A stretch of 64,000 bases of DNA from Nitrospira defluvii (GTDB lineage Bacteria; Nitrospirota; Nitrospiria; Nitrospirales; Nitrospiraceae). Within the stretch, counting starts at the first letter, position 1. Every line of letters starts with the position of its first letter. Of the stretch, positions 6,324 through 57,406 are shown piece after piece. The position numbers and the translations under genes are program-made. The notes below the pieces were generated by a model that was given only the letters and a program-made list of their open reading frames with translations, did no database searches and had not been told where the DNA came from. The stretch lies in NCBI GenBank assembly GCA_000196815.1, contig FP929003.1:186001-250000 (forward strand), written 5' to 3'.

Positions 6324-7975
6324 CGCGGGGTCACCTTCGCAAGTGCTTCATGGGAAGCGGATGTAGGTACGGTTGGCGAGGTGGCATGTGGAAGGTTCAT
6401 AGGGTGCTCCGCAACCGGGACGACCTTGGTGATACGAGCGATCAAGGGATCGACCCCGGATCTGACGACGGAGTAGAGGTGCCCTGGGAAAATTCCGAAA
6501 CTGATGCTGACGGTGATCATGATCAGCAGCGGCATGCGATCAACGACAGTCACCGCATCGTGTGAGTGGCTGTATTTCTCCGCCATGGAGCCATAGAACA
6601 AGCCCCGCATCATCTTGAAGAGATAGGCCATGGTCAGCACGATACCGAGGACGGCAACGACGACCTGGAAGGGGTATTTGTTCCAACTACCGACGATGAT
6701 CATGACTTCAGCGATAAAGTTCACGGTGCCGGGCATTCCGATCGAGGCCATGCAGCCAATGACGAAGGCGGCGGAAATGAACGGCATCCGGTTGGAGAGC
6801 CCTCCCAAAGAGGGAATGTCGCGGGTGTGGGTTTGATCGTAGACCCAGCCGGCCATAGCGAAGAGCATCCCGGTGGCCATGGCGTGAGCGAACATATAGA
6901 TGACGGCCCCGCTCAGGCTGATGTAGTCGAGGGCGGCCATTCCCAGGAACACGTAGCCCATATGGCTGGAGCTGGAATAGCCGATGACGTATTTGGTGTC
7001 CTTTGCGTAATAGGCGACGAGTCCGCCGTAGATGATGCTGAAGATGCACAGTACCGCGGCAATGGGCATGAGTTCTCGGGTGGTCTCGGGCAGGATTTCA
7101 AAGGCGACCCGAATAATCGAGAAATGTCCCAATTTCATCAGCACGCCTGCGTGCAACATGCTGGTTGCAGCCGGGGCGGCCGCGTGGCCGACGGGAGACC
7201 AGGAGTGCAGCGGCCAGATCGGAGCGATCGACGCAAAGCCGAAAAAGATTAACAGCCAGATCAGCGTGGCCAGAGGCCCCGAGAAATGGGCCTGCTCGCG
7301 CAACACCAGAATATCGAAGGTGTTGAGTCCTGAGAACTTGTAAATCAGGAGAATACCCATCAATGCCGCGACGGCGAAGGCGGACAGAAACAGGACCAGT
7401 TTCATGGCCGCATATTCTTTGCTGTTCGCGCCGAAATTGAAGATAAAGCCGACGGAATCTCGCTGCTTGAGGCCTTCCGCGTCCGTCATCTCGAGATACT
7501 TTTTCGTGTGGCTCCCCCACATGCCTAGGAGGAGATACATGGGGATCACGGACATTTCGTAGAAGAAATAGAGGAAGAACAAATCCAGCGACATGAATAC
7601 GCCGATCGTCGCTGCGGCCAGAATGAGAATCCAGATGTAAAACTCTTTGACCCGGTCTTTGATATGCCAGGAGACGAAAATGCCGGCGAAGAGAAGAATG
7701 CCGGAGGCGAGGACCAGCGGGGTGCCGATACCATCCACCCCGAGATGGAGGGAGATCCCTAGCTGGCGTGACCATTCAATGCGCTGGATAAATTGGTAGC
7801 CGCCTTTCAACGGATCGTAGGCGTAGAAAAGATAGACTGAGGCGATCAATGAGACAAAGGCCGAGCCGGCTGCAATGCCGCGGACCAGCGAGAGCTGGCG
7901 GTTGGAGACAAAGATCAGAGCCAGGGCTCCGACAAACGGCGCGAACAGAATAATGAGCAGCGTGTATTCAGCCAT
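6320..7975 (-). CDS. nuoM: NADH-quinone oxidoreductase subunit M, divergent second copy
   Basis: 551-residue membrane protein of the NuoM type. The TM5 glutamate (Glu140, FFYEMSVIP) and TM8 lysine (Lys281, AGVLMKLG) needed for proton pumping are present. It differs from ordinary NuoM: about 25 extra hydrophilic residues follow TM5 (about 155-188), and the usual PFHTWLPDAH motif reads PLHSWSPVGHAAAP. The C-terminus has a Pro/Thr/Ser tail. It lies 4 bp downstream of another nuoM gene. Two NuoM genes between nuoL and nuoN are the hallmark of 2M-type complex I. Which copy occupies which position in the pump chain cannot be told from sequence alone. Confidence 0.94.
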   Translation of the reverse strand: MAEYTLLIILFAPFVGALALIFVSNRQLSLVRGIAAGSAFVSLIASVYLFYAYDPLKGGYQFIQRIEWSRQLGISLHLGVDGIGTPLVLASGILLFAGIFVSWHIKDRVKEFYIWILILAAATIGVFMSLDLFFLYFFYEMSVIPMYLLLGMWGSHTKKYLEMTDAEGLKQRDSVGFIFNFGANSKEYAAMKLVLFLSAFAVAALMGILLIYKFSGLNTFDILVLREQAHFSGPLATLIWLLIFFGFASIAPIWPLHSWSPVGHAAAPAATSMLHAGVLMKLGHFSIIRVAFEILPETTRELMPIAAVLCIFSIIYGGLVAYYAKDTKYVIGYSSSSHMGYVFLGMAALDYISLSGAVIYMFAHAMATGMLFAMAGWVYDQTHTRDIPSLGGLSNRMPFISAAFVIGCMASIGMPGTVNFIAEVMIIVGSWNKYPFQVVVAVLGIVLTMAYLFKMMRGLFYGSMAEKYSHSHDAVTVVDRMPLLIMITVSISFGIFPGHLYSVVRSGVDPLIARITKVVPVAEHPMNLPHATSPTVPTSASHEALAKVTPR

Positions 7976-50582: not shown

Positions 50583-51692
50583 TTACTGTTTTCGGCTGGT
50601 ATCGAAGCTGTATCCCAGCGTAATCAGGTAGAGGTTGTCCGTATCCGACACGCCTGGCGGCGGATTCTTGTTGTACCGCATGGTCCACTGAAAGCCGCTT
50701 ACGAGACCTCCCCAGACTTTAAAGCGCAGCCCGGTGTCGGCCGTCAAGTAGAGATCCTTCGAGTTGGCGAGCGATTGGAATCCTTCCTGGAAGTGATACA
50801 GGCTCACCTGGTCGCCGCCCCAGAGCGGCCAATTCCATTTCACCGCCCATCGGCCTCGGGTGCTGGATTTATCGTCGGCGAGCTTAAAATCTTCGTTGAA
50901 GTAGGCGGCGCCAGCTTCCGCCCAGAGGGTCATATCTTTAAAGAGGCCTGCTAAGTCGCCGCGGTCGAGGAATTGATAGCCTGGACCGGTGGCGAGTGCG
51001 GTGCGCAACTTCAAGTCCTGGAAGGTATCCTGCTCGAAGTACGCCGACGCGAACCAATACAAACGTTTCGAGAGAAAGAAGTCAAGCTTGATAGTGCCAC
51101 GACTGTTCCGCACGATCAGATTTTGCGCGTTGTCGCCGTAGATGTAGCGTCCCAGGATGGTCAGGCGCAGTGATTCACTGCGGGCCGACAGTTCGCCAAG
51201 CAAGCTGCCATTTCGCAGATGGCTGTTGCCGGTCGTTTGTGAAAACCCGGCCTGGATGGCGCCGGTATAGATCACGGCTGGCTGGTTCATGCCGATGACC
51301 GTGTCGAGTGGAATGGCCATCGGAGTTCCCGTGGGGGCGGCTTTCAGGATCATGGTGCCGGGCTCGCCCGGTTGTGCCGTCCCCACTACCGTCGTGCCTT
51401 CTTTGAGGCTGAAAGGGACGGGACGATTGACCACCAGCTTGGCGACGTTCGGCCACATGATCTTGACGATATCGTCGCCTGCGGTCGGCCCGAAACCGGT
51501 TTTGATGTGCAGCTCGTCCGCGATCATGCCCAGGACCTGCCCATAAATCACCGTGCCGTCCTTGAGCGTGACGGCATCGAGCGCGGGCGCTGCGGGTGTC
51601 GTATCAGCCGGTGCCGGAGCTTCCGCTCGCACGATTGGGGCAGCGAGCGCCATCACGAGTAGCGCAAAAAAAAGAGATCCAAGTCGTCGCAT
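50583..51692 (-). CDS. Outer-membrane DUF481-type protein
   Basis: 369 residues, ATG after AGGAGGAGGACC. Signal peptide ends near VRA-E. The N-terminal half has a small beta domain (VTLKDGTVIYGQVLGMIADELHIKTGFG). The C-terminal half (about 145-369) is a beta-barrel-like repeat of alternating strands ending LYLITLGYSFDT, as in DUF481 salt-induced outer-membrane proteins (YdiY). A promoter-like pair lies 75-105 bp upstream. Function unknown. Confidence 0.78.
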   Translation of the reverse strand: MRRLGSLFFALLVMALAAPIVRAEAPAPADTTPAAPALDAVTLKDGTVIYGQVLGMIADELHIKTGFGPTAGDDIVKIMWPNVAKLVVNRPVPFSLKEGTTVVGTAQPGEPGTMILKAAPTGTPMAIPLDTVIGMNQPAVIYTGAIQAGFSQTTGNSHLRNGSLLGELSARSESLRLTILGRYIYGDNAQNLIVRNSRGTIKLDFFLSKRLYWFASAYFEQDTFQDLKLRTALATGPGYQFLDRGDLAGLFKDMTLWAEAGAAYFNEDFKLADDKSSTRGRWAVKWNWPLWGGDQVSLYHFQEGFQSLANSKDLYLTADTGLRFKVWGGLVSGFQWTMRYNKNPPPGVSDTDNLYLITLGYSFDTSRKQ

Positions 51693-52022
51693 CGTTCAGG
51701 TCCTCCTCCTGGGGCTTGCGAGCGGCAACAGCCTGTCGGTTGCCTGATCAGTGGGAAATGCTCGCGATGTATAATTGATTCTGCGTAGGAGATCAACATT
51801 CTGGCTCAAGAAATCCGTCTCGCGGCTGGTCGACTTGAATTGTAGGACTCGCGTAGGACGGCCTTTCCGCACGCATGAATGGCTCGTTCTGTTGGGTATA
51901 CGTACAGAGCGGAGTGTCATCGCATGGACCCAGCAGGGCCGATGGCGCGGAGCCGTGGATCACTATGCGACAGTCCTGTGAGTCTGAGACTCCCGCCGCG
52001 GTCGCAGCTCATATGTGCACCG
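51693..52022. other. Gene-free region between the DUF481-type gene and the LuxR-type gene
   Basis: 330 bp. Only the promoter at 51768-51796 is recognisable; small open frames here are not supported. Confidence 0.55.
51768..51796 (-). promoter_or_regulatory. Sigma-70-like promoter of the DUF481-type gene
   Basis: Minus strand TTGATC (51791-51796), 17-bp spacer, TATACA (51768-51773); four of six matches in each box. Confidence 0.4.
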
Positions 52023-52340
52023 TCATTTGACGTTGGTCAGCTTCCGTGTCTCTTTGGTACTCTCCGAGTCCGCCGAGGTCGGGGAGGGGCCTGTGCTAGT
52101 GGATGAGGGCATACGGAGTATGCCCTCAAGCAGTGCCAGGCGAAGCAGTTGTGCCGAGTTCGTTGCGCGGAATTTTCTCAAGAGATTGGCACGGTGTGAT
52201 TCCACGGTTTTGGGGGCGATCTGTAAACGAGCCGCAATTTCCTGGCTCGTCAGGCCGGCCCAAATCTGATTGAGTATCTCGCGCTCTCTTGCCGTGGGCG
52301 CATCCGGCCGTGGTCGTGAGAAGAGAATGAGCTTGTCCAT
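52023..52340 (-). CDS. Small LuxR-type HTH regulator without receiver
   Basis: 105 residues from ATG 52340, with AAGGAG five bases upstream; the frame opens earlier (52568) but the extra part covers the promoter region. One LuxR/NarL helix-turn-helix (about 14-75) with TAREREILNQIWAGLTSQEIAARL.IAPKTVESHRANLLRKF. There is no receiver or ligand domain; the last 35 residues are Ser/Thr-rich. It lies downstream of the sigma-54 activator gene, beyond a repeat array and a -24/-12-like site, and is probably that activator's target. Confidence 0.85.
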   Translation of the reverse strand: MDKLILFSRPRPDAPTAREREILNQIWAGLTSQEIAARLQIAPKTVESHRANLLRKFRATNSAQLLRLALLEGILRMPSSTSTGPSPTSADSESTKETRKLTNVK

Positions 52341-52427
52341 CGGTTCTCCTTGCGATCGCTTCGATAGGTCTGCTGCGCCGCCCGTCTTCAGGGCGTTGCA
52401 CGCAGTGGTTTTCGCGGGTACCCTCCT

Positions 52428-52443
52428 ATCAAGCTCCATGCCA
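52428..52443 (-). promoter_or_regulatory. Sigma-54-like (-24/-12) promoter of the LuxR-type gene
   Basis: Minus strand TGGCATG-N4-TTGAT, matching TGGCACG-N4-TTGCW except C to T at one place and A in place of the conserved C of the -12 GC. About 90 bp before the LuxR-type ATG and downstream of the repeat array at 52517-52577. Confidence 0.5.
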
Positions 52444-52516
52444 TACACCGTACGTTTTGCCGCGCGACGATAAAATCTGGGTTCTCGGGTGAGGACCCCT
52501 AAGAAGCTCCCAGGAT

Positions 52517-52577
52517 TGTCTGCGGATGAGACACGCGCCGTTGTCTCGCGCTGTGTCTTGCGAGACATGTCGAGACA
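52517..52577. promoter_or_regulatory. Cluster of TGTC/GAGACA inverted repeats (putative activator-binding sites)
   Basis: TGTCTG..GAGACA (52517-52533), TGTCTC (52542-52547), TGTCTT..GAGACA (52554-52567) and TGTCGAGACA (52568-52577). Several palindromic half-sites in 61 bp, about 75-150 bp upstream of the -24/-12 site, which is the usual place for enhancer sites of sigma-54 activators. The activator gene ends 30 bp before the array. Confidence 0.6.
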
Positions 52578-52606
52578 GTGAGCGGGGCGAGTGACTGCGG
52601 GACAGG

Positions 52607-54403
52607 TTAGCGGGTCGGGAGATCGAGTTCACTCAGTCGGCGGTAAAACGTGGCGCGGCTCATTCCGAGGAGGCGCGCGGCCTTTGTTCGGTTGCCACGG
52701 GCTTGTCCGAGGGCGGCCACGAAACGACTGCGCTCGTCTCCGTGCGGCACAACTTCGCAGGGAGAGTCTGTCGGTCCCTGCCGAAGTTCGGGAGGAAGAT
52801 CTGTGGCTTCGAGCGTGTCGCCCTTACAATGAATCATCGCGCACTCGATCGTGCTCTTGAGTTCCCGCACATTGCCGGGCCAATGGTACTCCATCAGTGC
52901 CGCCATCGCTGCCGGGCTGGCGCGATGGATGATTTTCCCCATGCTGGCCCGCCCCTCGGTCAGGAAGGAGGCGACGAGGAGGGGAATATCTTCCTTTCGA
53001 TCCCTCAGCGGCGGGAGCTGGATCCGTGAGACTCGAATCCGATAGAGAAGGTCGGCGCGAAAGGTTCCTTTCGCCACGTCCTGACTCAAATTGTGGTGGG
53101 TTGCGGTCAGCACGCGCACGTTCACTTTTCTCGGTCTGGTTTCACCGAGCCGAGTGACTTCCTTCTCTTGCAGTACGCGAAGCAGGTTGGTTTGGACGTT
53201 GTGGGGGATATCGCCGATCTCGTCGAGGAACAAGACCCCGCCCTGCGCGGCCTCGAAGAGCCCCTGCTGGTCGTCGATGGCTCCGGTAAACGCGCCTTTC
53301 TTGTGGCCGAAGAGTTGGCTGCCCAGCAGCGAATCCGTCAGCCCGGCGCAGTTGGCTGCAATGAAGGGCCCCTTATGTCGTGCGCTTGCCTGGTGTAACG
53401 CGCGGGCCACCAATTCTTTCCCCGTACCGGTCTCGCCTTCGATTAAGACCGTGGAGTCGACACGGGCCAGATCCTGAATCTGTTCGTAGATCTGCGTCAT
53501 CCCGCGGCTCTTGCCGACCAAATCATGATAGTGCGCCTTCAGCTCCAACAGGCGCCGCAAGTGATGGACGTCGGTCATGTCGTGGAGAAACATGATCTTG
53601 GTTCCGGTGTCCCGTGGATCGTCTTGCAGTTCTATCTCCAGCCAGAGGTGCCGCCCTGCCTGGGTTTCGACATGGCACTGCACTCGTTCGCGCCGGGATG
53701 CGGGTTGCTGCAACATCGACTGCAGGGCCAGCCGATCCGGTTTCGTTAGCGGGAGCAGTGTCTCCCACAGCAAGCCGTTCGGCCCGCCGGTTGCGGGCGT
53801 GTCCAGCAGACGAGCTGCGGAGGCACTGAGAAACCGCACCTGCCCCTCTTGGTCGATCAGCAGGGTGGCCAGTCCGAGTTGCTGCAAGATGACAGCGACG
53901 TCGTCCCGAGACCGCTCCATATCCACCAGTTTAGTGGTGAGCTCGTGCTGGGCGCGTTGGTGCCCACGATTGTGTTCGTGCTGCCGAAGCACCTGATCGC
54001 GAGCCCGCTGGAGGAGGGTGGCCTGTTGGTCATAGGCTGCCGTGCTGTGTTGGATCAGCAACAGGCGGCTGGGACCGTGTCGCAGCGCCATGGCATGAAA
54101 GTGCCGGGGCTCCTCAGCCTCGGGCTGCTCGCTCCAAAACCCCGAGTGCGCGATGTCGTCGCCGTCGGTCTGCCATGCATCGGCTGCATCGGCCAGGAAA
54201 TTCTGAAGCACCGGTGTGCGAGCATCGATGGACAGTGGCAGATTGTTTCGGGCGTCGGGGTAGAGGGTGAACAGCCAGGCCGGCGGGTGCCCGATGATGC
54301 GGAAATCTGCACCGGTGACGTGTTCGAGGATGGCAAATTGGAACCGCTGCAACAGATCCGTGCAGAGTAAGTCCGGTGCAGACGGGCGGGTGTTAGACGC
54401 CAT
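52607..54403 (-). CDS. Sigma-54-dependent transcriptional activator with PAS domain (Fis family)
   Basis: 598 residues from ATG 54403, overlapping the GTPase stop by 11 bp (the frame opens earlier, 54499). An uncharacterised N-terminal domain (about 10-125) and a coiled coil (130-170) precede a PAS domain (about 172-285). The AAA+ domain follows: Walker A GETGTGKE (323-330), sigma-54-contacting GAFTGA (370-375), Walker B LFLDEIGD, arginine finger FRADLLYR. A Fis-type HTH closes it (about 571-592). All catalytic motifs are intact. It is an enhancer-binding protein that opens sigma-54 promoters. Location after the GTPase suggests input from that module. Confidence 0.93.
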   Translation of the reverse strand: MASNTRPSAPDLLCTDLLQRFQFAILEHVTGADFRIIGHPPAWLFTLYPDARNNLPLSIDARTPVLQNFLADAADAWQTDGDDIAHSGFWSEQPEAEEPRHFHAMALRHGPSRLLLIQHSTAAYDQQATLLQRARDQVLRQHEHNRGHQRAQHELTTKLVDMERSRDDVAVILQQLGLATLLIDQEGQVRFLSASAARLLDTPATGGPNGLLWETLLPLTKPDRLALQSMLQQPASRRERVQCHVETQAGRHLWLEIELQDDPRDTGTKIMFLHDMTDVHHLRRLLELKAHYHDLVGKSRGMTQIYEQIQDLARVDSTVLIEGETGTGKELVARALHQASARHKGPFIAANCAGLTDSLLGSQLFGHKKGAFTGAIDDQQGLFEAAQGGVLFLDEIGDIPHNVQTNLLRVLQEKEVTRLGETRPRKVNVRVLTATHHNLSQDVAKGTFRADLLYRIRVSRIQLPPLRDRKEDIPLLVASFLTEGRASMGKIIHRASPAAMAALMEYHWPGNVRELKSTIECAMIHCKGDTLEATDLPPELRQGPTDSPCEVVPHGDERSRFVAALGQARGNRTKAARLLGMSRATFYRRLSELDLPTR

Positions 54404-54929
54404 CGGTTGTTCCTGCAGGGGGCGTTTCCGGTGGCGTGCCGAGCACGGCGCGGGTGAGAACCGCGAAGGCCTCCTCGACGCCCTGCCCTGTCTTGGCACT
54501 GGTCACGAGCACCGTCCAACCACGCTGGGCGAGCTGGGCGAGGTCCTCGTGGGTCACTTCCCAATCCGCCCGTCGGTCCAGTTTATTGATGAGGACCACA
54601 AACGGAACCGGGCCGAGTGTGTCTGCTGCGGTCAGTTGAATGTGCAGCGCGATGTCCAGCGTGGCCCGCCGCATTCCGTCCAGGACTACCAGGTACCCGG
54701 ACGATCCGCGCAGATACGAGCGGCGCAATTTTTGGAATTCATCTTCTCCGTAGAGATCCCAGAGCACTAATGTCACGGCCCGGCCGTCCATCGACAGGGT
54801 TTTCTTGTCGACGGTCACTCCGATGGTTGTTTGATACTGGTCGGAGAAACAGCTGGTGACGAAGCGGCGCACCAGACTGGTTTTTCCTACGGCAAAGGCG
54901 CCCAGCATGCAGATTTTTTTTTCGATCAT
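54393..54929 (-). CDS. Ras-like small GTPase
   Basis: 178 residues. G1 GAFAVGKTS (10-18), G2 Thr35 in QTTIGV, G3 WDLYGED (57-63), G4 NKLD (115-118), G5 TSAK (143-146). The layout is that of Rab/Roc-type small GTPases. The residue after the G3 Gly (Gln in Ras/Rab WDTAGQ) is Glu62, which may slow hydrolysis. No lipidation tail. Follows the OmpA-type membrane protein by 12 bp and precedes the sigma-54 activator with overlap, so it is part of one operon. Confidence 0.9.
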   Translation of the reverse strand: MIEKKICMLGAFAVGKTSLVRRFVTSCFSDQYQTTIGVTVDKKTLSMDGRAVTLVLWDLYGEDEFQKLRRSYLRGSSGYLVVLDGMRRATLDIALHIQLTAADTLGPVPFVVLINKLDRRADWEVTHEDLAQLAQRGWTVLVTSAKTGQGVEEAFAVLTRAVLGTPPETPPAGTTDGV

Positions 54930-54941
54930 GTCAGGGGCGTC

Positions 54942-56672
54942 TCATGAAGCGGGGTGAACAGTAGCCTGAAAAGACACTCGCCGGTCCTGCGGCAGTGTGG
55001 CGGCACCCAGGGAGGGTGAGGTTTCAGCTGCCGGGCCGATCCCGCGAGCGTGAAACGTGATCGCGGAAAAGGTGGCGGGATGAAGGGCCTCGAGCACCGA
55101 CCGGGCGCGATCCTCGCTCAGCCGTTGGTTCCGGCTTGACCGGCCCACGACGTCGGTTTGGCCGGTGATCTCCAGCATCACCGTTGCGCCGGAGAGACGC
55201 GCCATATCGTCCAGCTGATACAGGAGCGCCGATATGCGACGCACCCCCTGAAGTTGTTCCGGTGATTGGATCGTCGCCGTTCCCTGTTGGAACAGAATCC
55301 AGACCCCTGCCATCCGTTGGACCAGTGCCTCAAGCGATTGAGCGACGAGGCGGCGGTCGTCATATTCGGTGATACCGGGGAGCAGGCGCGCCAACGGTCG
55401 GCTCTGCCGGATCCACTCTGCGGTGGCTGCGCCGGTGGCTGTGAGGCGCGGTCCTTCCAGGGTCAAGCGAACGGTGTCTGGGGGTGACAGGACGATTCCG
55501 GCTCGTTTCAGGGTGAACGCGGCATCGAGGGCGTAGTAGGGGCTCCATTTCGCTTCGACTCGATCGGCGGCCACCCCACTGCCCTGCAACAACACGTCCG
55601 GATCAGCGGCCAACGGGTCGCGCAGCCCGGTGAGCACATACCGAGTGCCTGCTGAATGCGTGGAGGTGACGACGAGGCCCGGTTCCGAGGCCAGCCGGTC
55701 CAGATACGCCTGCCAGTGTTGGTGGTCTTGAAAGGCGGACAGCCCCCACCAGCCTGCTCCCACAATGCTCGCCGCTAAGAGTCCCCATGTCATGGGGGCT
55801 ATAGCGCGCCGGCGCGTTTCAAACTGGGTCCGCAGGCACGCTTCCAGGAGCGGTGTGGTTCCGGTAAAGGGTGCCGCATCACCACTGAAGCGCGTCAGCG
55901 CATCGGAGTGTTCGGCGTGAATGCGATCGAGCGTGTCCTGGAGGTGGACGTGAAATATCTCCGGTGGCGTGCCACGTATGACGGCCGCGAGGATTGCCGA
56001 GGAGCCCTGTTCGATCCAGACGGTCAGATCACCGACTTGCAAGGTGTTCAACGCTTGATCGGGCGTTGCCCCGAACGAATCCTGGACGAAGCTCCGAATC
56101 GCCGACAACATGCCCGAGACCAGGGTCTGATCCTGCACGGCGACCGCGTCGCCGGCCGCGTGCGCGAGCAGCAGGCCGGTCTGAGTGTGAATGAGAAAGA
56201 CCTGCTCGACTCGATAGCAGAGGGTATGAAGCAGGACGATCTCGGCGAACGGTTTGCCGGTACGCAAGGCCTCCAGCCGCCACTGCATGCTTCGGATCGA
56301 GAGGCTGTGTTCAATGGTTTGGTTGAGCGATTGCACCATGCTGCGCAAGGCATTGGCGATGGCCTGGCGGATCGCCGGCATCATGATCGGGGCAATCGCA
56401 TCGACGATCATGTGGGGCCGTTTGCGCACGGAGACCCCCAGCGCTTCGGAGACGTGAGGGGTCAGTGCATGGGTCAGCCGATGGTCGGTCTCCCCACGAA
56501 GCGCGATCGCCTCGGGAAGCACACGATTCAGATTGTGGGCGTTGAGGTCGAGATGTTCGACCTGCTCTTGCAGTTGTTCCAGCCGCGATTGCTCGGGCGC
56601 CAGGAGGAGGCTGCGCAATTCGGCATAGTCGCGTTCGACTGCCGGTGTGCCGGCTTTAGGTGCGCGCGCCAT
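54942..56672 (-). CDS. Membrane protein with roadblock-like cytosolic domain and C-terminal OmpA-like domain
   Basis: 576 residues, ATG after GGAGACGGG. Residues 1-145: helical region with VLPEAIALR and HSLSIRSMQWRLEALRTGKPFAEIVLLHTLCYRVEQVF. Residues about 150-235: alternating alpha/beta pattern resembling roadblock/LC7 domains (QVFLIHTQTGLLLAHAAGD...DLTVWIEQG). Single transmembrane helix at about 293-312. The C-terminal periplasmic part ends in an OmpA-like domain (about 495-576, GQTDVVG, RLSEDRARSVLEAL). The domain after the coiled region sits on the cytosolic side, where the GTPase would be. Known as an uncharacterised family; the link between GTPase and cell wall is inference. Confidence 0.8.
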   Translation of the reverse strand: MARAPKAGTPAVERDYAELRSLLLAPEQSRLEQLQEQVEHLDLNAHNLNRVLPEAIALRGETDHRLTHALTPHVSEALGVSVRKRPHMIVDAIAPIMMPAIRQAIANALRSMVQSLNQTIEHSLSIRSMQWRLEALRTGKPFAEIVLLHTLCYRVEQVFLIHTQTGLLLAHAAGDAVAVQDQTLVSGMLSAIRSFVQDSFGATPDQALNTLQVGDLTVWIEQGSSAILAAVIRGTPPEIFHVHLQDTLDRIHAEHSDALTRFSGDAAPFTGTTPLLEACLRTQFETRRRAIAPMTWGLLAASIVGAGWWGLSAFQDHQHWQAYLDRLASEPGLVVTSTHSAGTRYVLTGLRDPLAADPDVLLQGSGVAADRVEAKWSPYYALDAAFTLKRAGIVLSPPDTVRLTLEGPRLTATGAATAEWIRQSRPLARLLPGITEYDDRRLVAQSLEALVQRMAGVWILFQQGTATIQSPEQLQGVRRISALLYQLDDMARLSGATVMLEITGQTDVVGRSSRNQRLSEDRARSVLEALHPATFSAITFHARGIGPAAETSPSLGAATLPQDRRVSFQATVHPAS

Positions 56673-56788
56673 CCCGTCTCCATGGCCTAAAGGAAGGAGG
56701 GAATTCTATACGACACATCGTTGCCGAGGAAACAACCGTGCGCGCGGTCTGAAGGGCAGACCGGAACCGTTGACGAATCGGCGTGGAG

Positions 56789-57406
56789 TTAGGCCTGTTG
56801 CGGAGGCTGGTCATGCGAGAGCCTCTGTGAGAGCTCCTGGAACAAGGTCGCAAGGGACGCGCGGTCGGTCTTTTGGTGTGAGAGTTGGCGGACCGCATCG
56901 TCGAGGGTGGCCGATAAGACGGCATGTTGCTGGGTGAAATCACCGGAGAGGGATGTGGCCTGATTCTGGAGCTGGGTGCGCAAGTCGTGATGTGCCTGCT
57001 CGCTCTGCTCCCGCAGCTGGGTCGCCGTCTGCTGGAGCACGCCGGCCAGCGTCTGCAGTTCCGTGGTCAGGCGTCCGACGGCATCGGTGCGGTCCTGTTC
57101 TTCGGCCGTCAGGCGCCCCGTCACCGTGTCCACTTCTTTTCGAATGTATTGCTCCAGCGAGGCGAATCGTTCCTTGAGGTCGTTGCGCAATTGGGCTGCT
57201 TCCGCCAGCAACTGCGCTTCGAGTTTGGCGAACCGGCGCTCATGATCACGTACCTGGGCGCCGAAGAGAATGTCGCGGATCTTGTCGAGGTTGGTGCCGG
57301 CTGCATGCTCCTCGGTCAGCACGGATTCCGTTTCTGTGTCGGCGAGACTGCTGCCCGAGGTTCGTTCCGAACGTCGGGGGCGATCAAGATCCGTCTGCCT
57401 GCTCAT
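56789..57406 (-). CDS. Coiled-coil protein of the GTPase module
   Basis: 205 residues, ATG after AAGGAGACCCCATC. An N-terminal acidic segment has LDKIRDILFGAQVRDHERRFAKLEAQL, a phrase typical of small cytosolic proteins next to OmpA/GTPase genes. The rest is uninterrupted heptad-repeat coil (about 55-195). No signal peptide or enzymatic motif. First gene of the operon leading into the membrane protein 116 bp downstream; probable structural partner. Confidence 0.75.
   Translation of the reverse strand: MSRQTDLDRPRRSERTSGSSLADTETESVLTEEHAAGTNLDKIRDILFGAQVRDHERRFAKLEAQLLAEAAQLRNDLKERFASLEQYIRKEVDTVTGRLTAEEQDRTDAVGRLTTELQTLAGVLQQTATQLREQSEQAHHDLRTQLQNQATSLSGDFTQQHAVLSATLDDAVRQLSHQKTDRASLATLFQELSQRLSHDQPPQQA

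Follow-up and report, generated by a model that had tools for sequence, protein, structure and literature searches.

A predicted activator-linked enhancer array and sigma-54-like promoter before an HTH-only LuxR-type gene in Nitrospira

What lies in the spacer between the gene for a sigma-54 activator (EBP1) and the small LuxR-type gene (LuxR1) that follows it, and do the elements found there belong to the activator or to the gene downstream? The original prediction had placed a cluster of repeats and a -24/-12 site in this spacer, both at positions that proved right, and had read the layout as enhancer, sigma-54 promoter and target gene. We analysed the spacer in the window (the whole stretch of 64,000 nucleotides, part of a single contig of 4,317,083 bases), in the other genomes of the genus, and in more distant relatives of the activator.

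The locus and its half-site array

On the minus strand, the gene order is coiled-coil ORF, OmpA-domain protein, Ras-like GTPase, EBP1, spacer, LuxR1, and DUF481 protein (Table 1). The ATG of EBP1 overlaps the stop codon of the GTPase gene. EBP1 qualifies as a sigma-54 activator (bEBP) by its AAA+ domain, with GAFTGA present in the translation, and by its Fis-type HTH (cut-off 22 bits), which contains the helix SRATFYRRL. Its N-terminal 288 residues were modelled as two PAS-like folds with a long helix between them (structure prediction, mean pLDDT 73, pTM 0.55); the tandem structural matches of this model (TM-score ~0.35) name no ligand, and no receiver domain match was found in EBP1. A comparison of the EBP1 gene with plasmid DNA gave 123 partial matches, none with 80% coverage. 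LuxR1 consists of a GerE HTH alone, which places it among the LuxR/GerE-type regulators. Pfam covers only the HTH part of the protein, with no receiver or autoinducer domain match, so that it does not class as a quorum-sensing LuxR. The best NCBIfam matches of LuxR1 (FixJ, an unnamed two-component regulator, and PedR) are all far under cut-off.

Table 1. Features of the EBP1-LuxR1 locus, in window positions.
Feature	Position	Strand	Remarks
Coiled-coil ORF	56789-57406	-	named from its own sequence
OmpA-domain protein	54942-56672	-	25.4 bits, slightly below the Pfam cut-off
Ras-like GTPase	54393-54929	-	
EBP1, sigma-54 activator	52607..54403	-	PF00158 226.5 bits, PF02954 38.2 bits
Half-site h1 TGTCTC	52572..52577	-	
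Half-site h2 TGTCTC	52562..52567	-	10 bp from h1
Half-site h3 GACACA, degenerate, inverted	52552..52557	-	10 bp from h2; GAGACA in many relatives
Half-site h4 GAGACA, inverted	52542..52547	-	10 bp from h3
Half-site h5 TGTCTC	52528..52533	-	14 bp from h4; most conserved 6-column window in the spacer
Weak sixth half-site CAGACA	52517..52522	-	close relatives only
-24/-12 element TGGCATGGAGCTTGAT	52428..52443	-	GG, 10 bp, GA where GC is usual; GGC at -24 in 27/27, TTG at -12 in 26/27
AAACCACTGCGTGCAA	52396..52411	-	directly after the expected start site (~52417)
LuxR1, HTH-only LuxR/GerE-type regulator, presumed target	52023..52340	-	105 aa; PF00196 65.6 bits
DUF481 protein	50583-51692	-	next after LuxR1

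The four genes from the coiled-coil ORF to EBP1 (window 52607-57406) also stay together outside the genus, in G048, G060, G050, and G057. Upstream of the DUF481 gene (window 51724-51796, minus strand) is a sigma-70-like TTGATC-N17-TATACA, with similar sequence in several relatives. It is followed by the inverted repeat GGCAAC...GTTGCC, possibly a LuxR1 operator or a leader hairpin.

The repeats, which had been called palindromes, are real; they are more exactly two direct and two inverted half-sites. The array begins 29 bp after the EBP1 stop codon, runs in exact 10-bp steps through h1 to h4, and so has all four on one face of the helix; the fifth half-site and then the weak sixth follow. With two mismatches allowed, 23 of the 29 genus genomes each have the four-half-site pattern at a single place, and the reversed control gave no match, which takes the array beyond chance. 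The array, or a reduced form of it (4/27), stands before the LuxR1 ortholog in 27 of the 29. In the aligned spacers of these 27 genomes, the array window ranked 2 of 251 for conservation and the h5 window 1 of 281.

At least three exact half-sites lie within 60 bp at all 24 scored genus loci; this scoring did not include G006 and G028, where EBP1 is divided over contigs, or G014, where it is deleted, and it used a looser rule for G001 and G007. When each locus was shuffled 500 times, no shuffle matched the observed number of half-sites in 22 of the 24 loci, and one did in each of G022 and G007. By a stricter score for the four half-sites, G013, G001, G004, and G007 scored no more than 15 of 23, a value within the shuffle range. 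The low scores are caused by one-base shifts (G013, G001, G007) and a degenerate h1 (G001, G007); G004 has no h1, and its frame was misplaced by 10 bases in the scripted alignment. When exact half-sites within 60 bp are counted instead, G013, G001, G004, and G007 have 4, 3, 4, and 3, counts reached by 0, 0, 0, and 1 of 500 shuffles, respectively.

Inverted repeats directly after a gene might also act as RNA, as a hairpin, attenuator, or terminator, and TGTCTCGC and GCGAGACA could pair. However, the stretches between the half-sites pair in only 49 of 108 cells, whereas the half-sites themselves do so in 143 of 162 and 120 of 162 (counts that include four genomes with badly fitting arrays), the fold energy has a z of -0.97, and no terminator-like site was found. 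We consider a role as RNA very improbable. A coding role for the repeats is even harder to credit. It would require the LuxR ORF to start at an upstream ATG at 52568, and a 181-aa frame is indeed open in this genome; however, the open frame at the LuxR1 orthologs can be as short as 102 aa or as long as 201 aa (G002 and G022 have 106 aa), the length differences between spacers are not all multiples of three, and AAGGAG precedes the ATG at 52340.

The -24/-12 element and its -12 box

The half-site h4 is followed after 98 bp by TGGCATGGAGCTTGAT, which in turn is followed after 87 bp by the LuxR1 start codon. The distance from the array to -24 is 97-101 bp in 25 of the 27 genomes; it is 89 bp in G027 and 119 bp in G004, as placed by the script. 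The element has the GG at -24 and the 10-bp spacing to the -12 dinucleotide of a sigma-54 promoter. At -12, GA or GT takes the place of the canonical GC in 25 of the 27: the box reads TTGA in 16 genomes, TTGT in nine, TTGC only in G028, and TTAA in G014. The conservation of the -24/-12 window in the aligned spacers is good but not unique (rank 12 of 270). A single match to the RpoN domain was found in each of the 29 genomes, so that the organism has the sigma factor that such a promoter calls for.

Canonical sites are present in the same genome: TGGCACN5TTGCW was found six times (control 1), and at least three of these sites (L179, L181, L182) begin 48 to 73 bp before the start of an ORF. The ORF behind one canonical site is what we take to be an LpxC-like gene. 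The pattern TGGCAYN5TTGAT had 11 matches genome-wide (control 2): HTH-only LuxR genes or operons follow three of them, an ORF follows two more (L113, L115), and the remaining six run antisense within ORFs. These antisense matches, and the -12 box without its C, would fit a chance or non-promoter motif, with LuxR1 transcribed from elsewhere, such as by readthrough from EBP1. Against this, TTG is kept in all genomes but one, and a like motif precedes the paralogous LuxR-type operons described below in 39 of 39 scored promoters; we regard a chance motif as unlikely. A sigma-70 reading was set aside, as neither a sigma-70-like promoter nor a terminator was found in 52000-52750.

The paralogous activator has a REC domain, an AAA+ domain, and a Fis-type HTH with an SRRT helix. 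It adjoins a hybrid histidine kinase and is followed by two operons, each composed of a small protein and an HTH-only LuxR gene. TGGCAY-GATCY-TTGA precedes the first operon in 21 of 21 genomes, and YGGCAY-N5-TTGA (promoter 2b) precedes the second in 18 of the 18 promoters found among the 21 genomes; both counts allowed A, C, or T after TTG. In G001 and G007, promoter 2b lies elsewhere and has TTGAG; none was seen in G004. The two small proteins (L061 5203-5466 and about 7161-7433) are ~90 aa long, and the first has no NCBIfam match.

The original prediction had noted that the -12 box lacks the usual C, which is confirmed, and had suspected a weak promoter or a different element. Non-C is kept at three promoters, and the missing C is hence not decay. 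Since TTGA or TTGT is kept across the genus, and the window's own genome has canonical sites as well and a single RpoN match, non-C at -12 is, as judged from these comparisons, a retained feature of the EBP1 and paralog promoter set.

The sites upstream of the paralog promoters were surveyed with TTGA required in the promoter pattern. Conserved CATGnCACA, TSTGnCACA, and TGTGCCAT lie upstream of the first operon in place of GTCTC sites, and the LuxR2a promoters have no conserved array of the EBP1-spacer kind. Upstream of the second operon, YGTCTCA was found in 18 of 18, along with one or two TGnCACA, and 11 of the 18 have a pair of YGTCTC 10 or 13 bp apart. The TGTCTC pair is absent from the stretch read before promoter 2b in G001 and G007. 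Because both kinds of half-site occur upstream of promoter 2b, control by two activators is possible, and the second operon may be under both; the presence of YGTCTCA at promoter 2b also counts against the circuit proposed below, as more than one target may share the half-site. In G012 and G017 (L139, L143), which have no orthologs of either activator, LuxR2a is nevertheless kept with TGGCATGATCCTTGATG in front.

Downstream of the -24/-12 element, AAACCACTGC was found in 18 of the 27 genus spacers, and the window of this block ranked only 50 of 261; the 16-mer AAACCACTGCGTGCAA has one zero-mismatch occurrence in the genome. The leader (52341-52432) folds somewhat better than its shuffles (z -1.92, 10 of 200).

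Loss genomes and relatives outside the genus

Two genus genomes, G012 and G017 (the latter 94% complete), have no EBP1 ortholog, no LuxR1, and no array. Their best matches to EBP1 have E-values of 5e-81 and 8e-77; the orthologs in other genomes are found at 7e-240 or better. In G014, a deletion has joined the coiled-coil gene to the final codons of EBP1 (L056 4302-4770, reverse-strand numbering). The OmpA-domain and GTPase genes and most of EBP1 are missing from the locus, and the array and LuxR1 remain, which counts against a dedicated EBP1 enhancer. The -12 box of G014 is TTAA, where the 26 other genomes have TTG; this is the direction of change expected if the promoter were no longer used, seen in one case and in a draft assembly.

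Outside the genus, we read the region after 15 EBP1 relatives, comprising all non-genus matches with E <=1.4e-140. Exact half-sites within 60 bp number four in G044, three in G056, and two each in G048 and G052; 0, 0, 10, and 3 of 500 shuffles, respectively, reached these counts. G058, G038, and G059 have one exact half-site each, along with degenerate copies, and the other eight relatives have none in the 300 bp scored. All seven genomes with half-sites have GGCAY-N5-TTG further down, and the -12 box is TTGA in five of them, TTGT in G044, and TTGC in G048. Two relatives without an exact half-site, G050b and G060, have a GGCAY-N5-TTGA element. In G060 (L158 5873-7000), the DUF481 gene directly follows the activator, with no LuxR gene between them, and a GGCATGTGCTTTGAA element lies 71 bp before it.

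An alanine in the recognition-type helix (SRAT, GRAT) goes with at least two half-sites in 7 of 11 loci, compared to 0 of 7 loci with other residues (Fisher p 0.013, kinship ignored; G000, G001, and G004 stood for the genus). The SRAT helix of EBP1 is also found in G041, yet no half-site follows its activator. The comparison suggests a modest association between helix and array. The absence of half-sites in G041, the single exact copies in G058, G038, and G059, and the -12 box without its usual C also count against the circuit proposed below.

The half-sites could instead be an operator for LuxR1 itself, which would then regulate its own gene. Wherever a genus genome has the array (27 genomes), LuxR1 comes after it, and G014 retains both without EBP1. 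However, the gene that follows the activator and its half-sites in G044 and G056, and the weaker arrays of G058 and G038, encodes a protein with a receiver domain (PF00072; 143 to 150 aa) and not a LuxR protein; tblastn found no LuxR relative in the stretch fetched for these four. G052 and G059 present a similar picture. The LuxR2a promoters, as noted, also have no such array. The half-sites and the promoter thus stay with the activator in part of the order while the target differs, which speaks against autoregulation as the main role, and we judge that role improbable. The reading as an EBP1 enhancer and promoter agrees with the original layout: the array and the -24/-12 element rank with the most conserved stretches of the spacer, the distance between them is nearly fixed, and both track the activator.

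Further targets were sought with two half-site patterns. Exact TGTCTC-N4-GAGACA was found at nine places in 8 of the 29 genomes (control one place); one is the array of G010, and the other eight may be due to chance. Tandem TGTCTC-N4-8-YGTCTC had eight matches in the window's own genome (control four), two of which are the window array and promoter 2b. The tandem matches L171, L174, L177, and L178 have no YGGCAY-N5-TTG on that strand within the fetched 3 kb.

The proposed circuit and the closest known systems

We conclude, with a probability of about 0.82, that the spacer holds a dedicated EBP1 enhancer and a sigma-54-like promoter whose non-C -12 box is conserved and which drives LuxR1. From the elements, their conservation and co-occurrence, and the one RpoN match per genome, we infer the following course of events. 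EBP1 would bind the YGTCTC half-sites as dimers stacked in 10-bp steps on one face of the DNA. A signal, received through the PAS region of EBP1 or through an operon partner (the Ras-like GTPase or the OmpA-domain protein), would lead EBP1 to form a ring and loop over ~100 bp. The ring would then remodel RNA polymerase with RpoN at the -24/-12 element, and the transcript would start near 52417, with a leader of ~77 nt. LuxR1 may carry the signal to further genes, the DUF481 gene perhaps first.

Several known systems come close. At enterobacterial glmY/glmZ, GlrR (QseF) has the inverted half-sites TGTC-N10-GACA (PMC4987338). The locus studied here likewise combines a sigma-54 activator with TGTC/GACA inverted half-sites; unlike GlrR, EBP1 has no receiver match, its YGTCTC array is four-fold with 10-bp steps (core TGTC-N8-GACA), and the target is of LuxR type. 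EBP1 scores 270 bits against the GlrR model, whose cut-off is 763. For PrsR of the PEP-CTERM system, the activator site and the -24/-12 element were found by comparison alone (PMC1569441). The PrsR site stands before many genes with GG/GC promoters, whereas each genome has a single full array for EBP1 and the -12 box usually lacks the C; EBP1 scores 292 bits against the PrsR model (cut-off 503). At qrr1 of Vibrio fischeri, LuxO and SypG share a sigma-54 promoter in the manner of an OR gate (PMC10162802). Promoter 2b resembles it in having two kinds of half-site, a likeness of sequence; unlike at qrr1, the target is an HTH-only LuxR protein. Bradyrhizobium japonicum is reported to have two sigma-54 promoter consensus sequences that differ only at -12; this species is cited among those with several RpoN copies (PMC3162934), whereas one RpoN match per genome was found here. 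LuxR1 resembles other HTH-only GerE-type regulators in its single GerE HTH and its length.

In the accessible portions of two papers on Nitrospira, sigma-54 regulators are discussed only beside nxr genes (PMC6606698, PMC7522533). We found no description of this array in the open literature searched, a search that most subscription papers lie outside.

As a prediction, the original layout is well supported by the comparisons. Circuits of this kind are known; this one differs in its conserved non-C -12 box and in a target that can be exchanged. A bolder reading, which we hold to be doubtful, is that the EBP1 subfamily and its promoters form a distinct class of sigma-54 promoter within one genome. 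TTGA or TTGT would be held over the genus and several other Nitrospirales, with the non-C box determining the degree to which the polymerase is silenced or the activator able to open it, and the target (LuxR-type, receiver protein, perhaps DUF481) would be exchanged while enhancer and promoter stay constant.

The locus offers a testable predicted regulatory cascade in nitrite-oxidising Nitrospira, with G014 as a natural deletion contrast. Conserved sigma-54-type promoters that naturally lack the -12 C also occur here alongside canonical ones under one RpoN, and this set would be useful for studying the role of this base.
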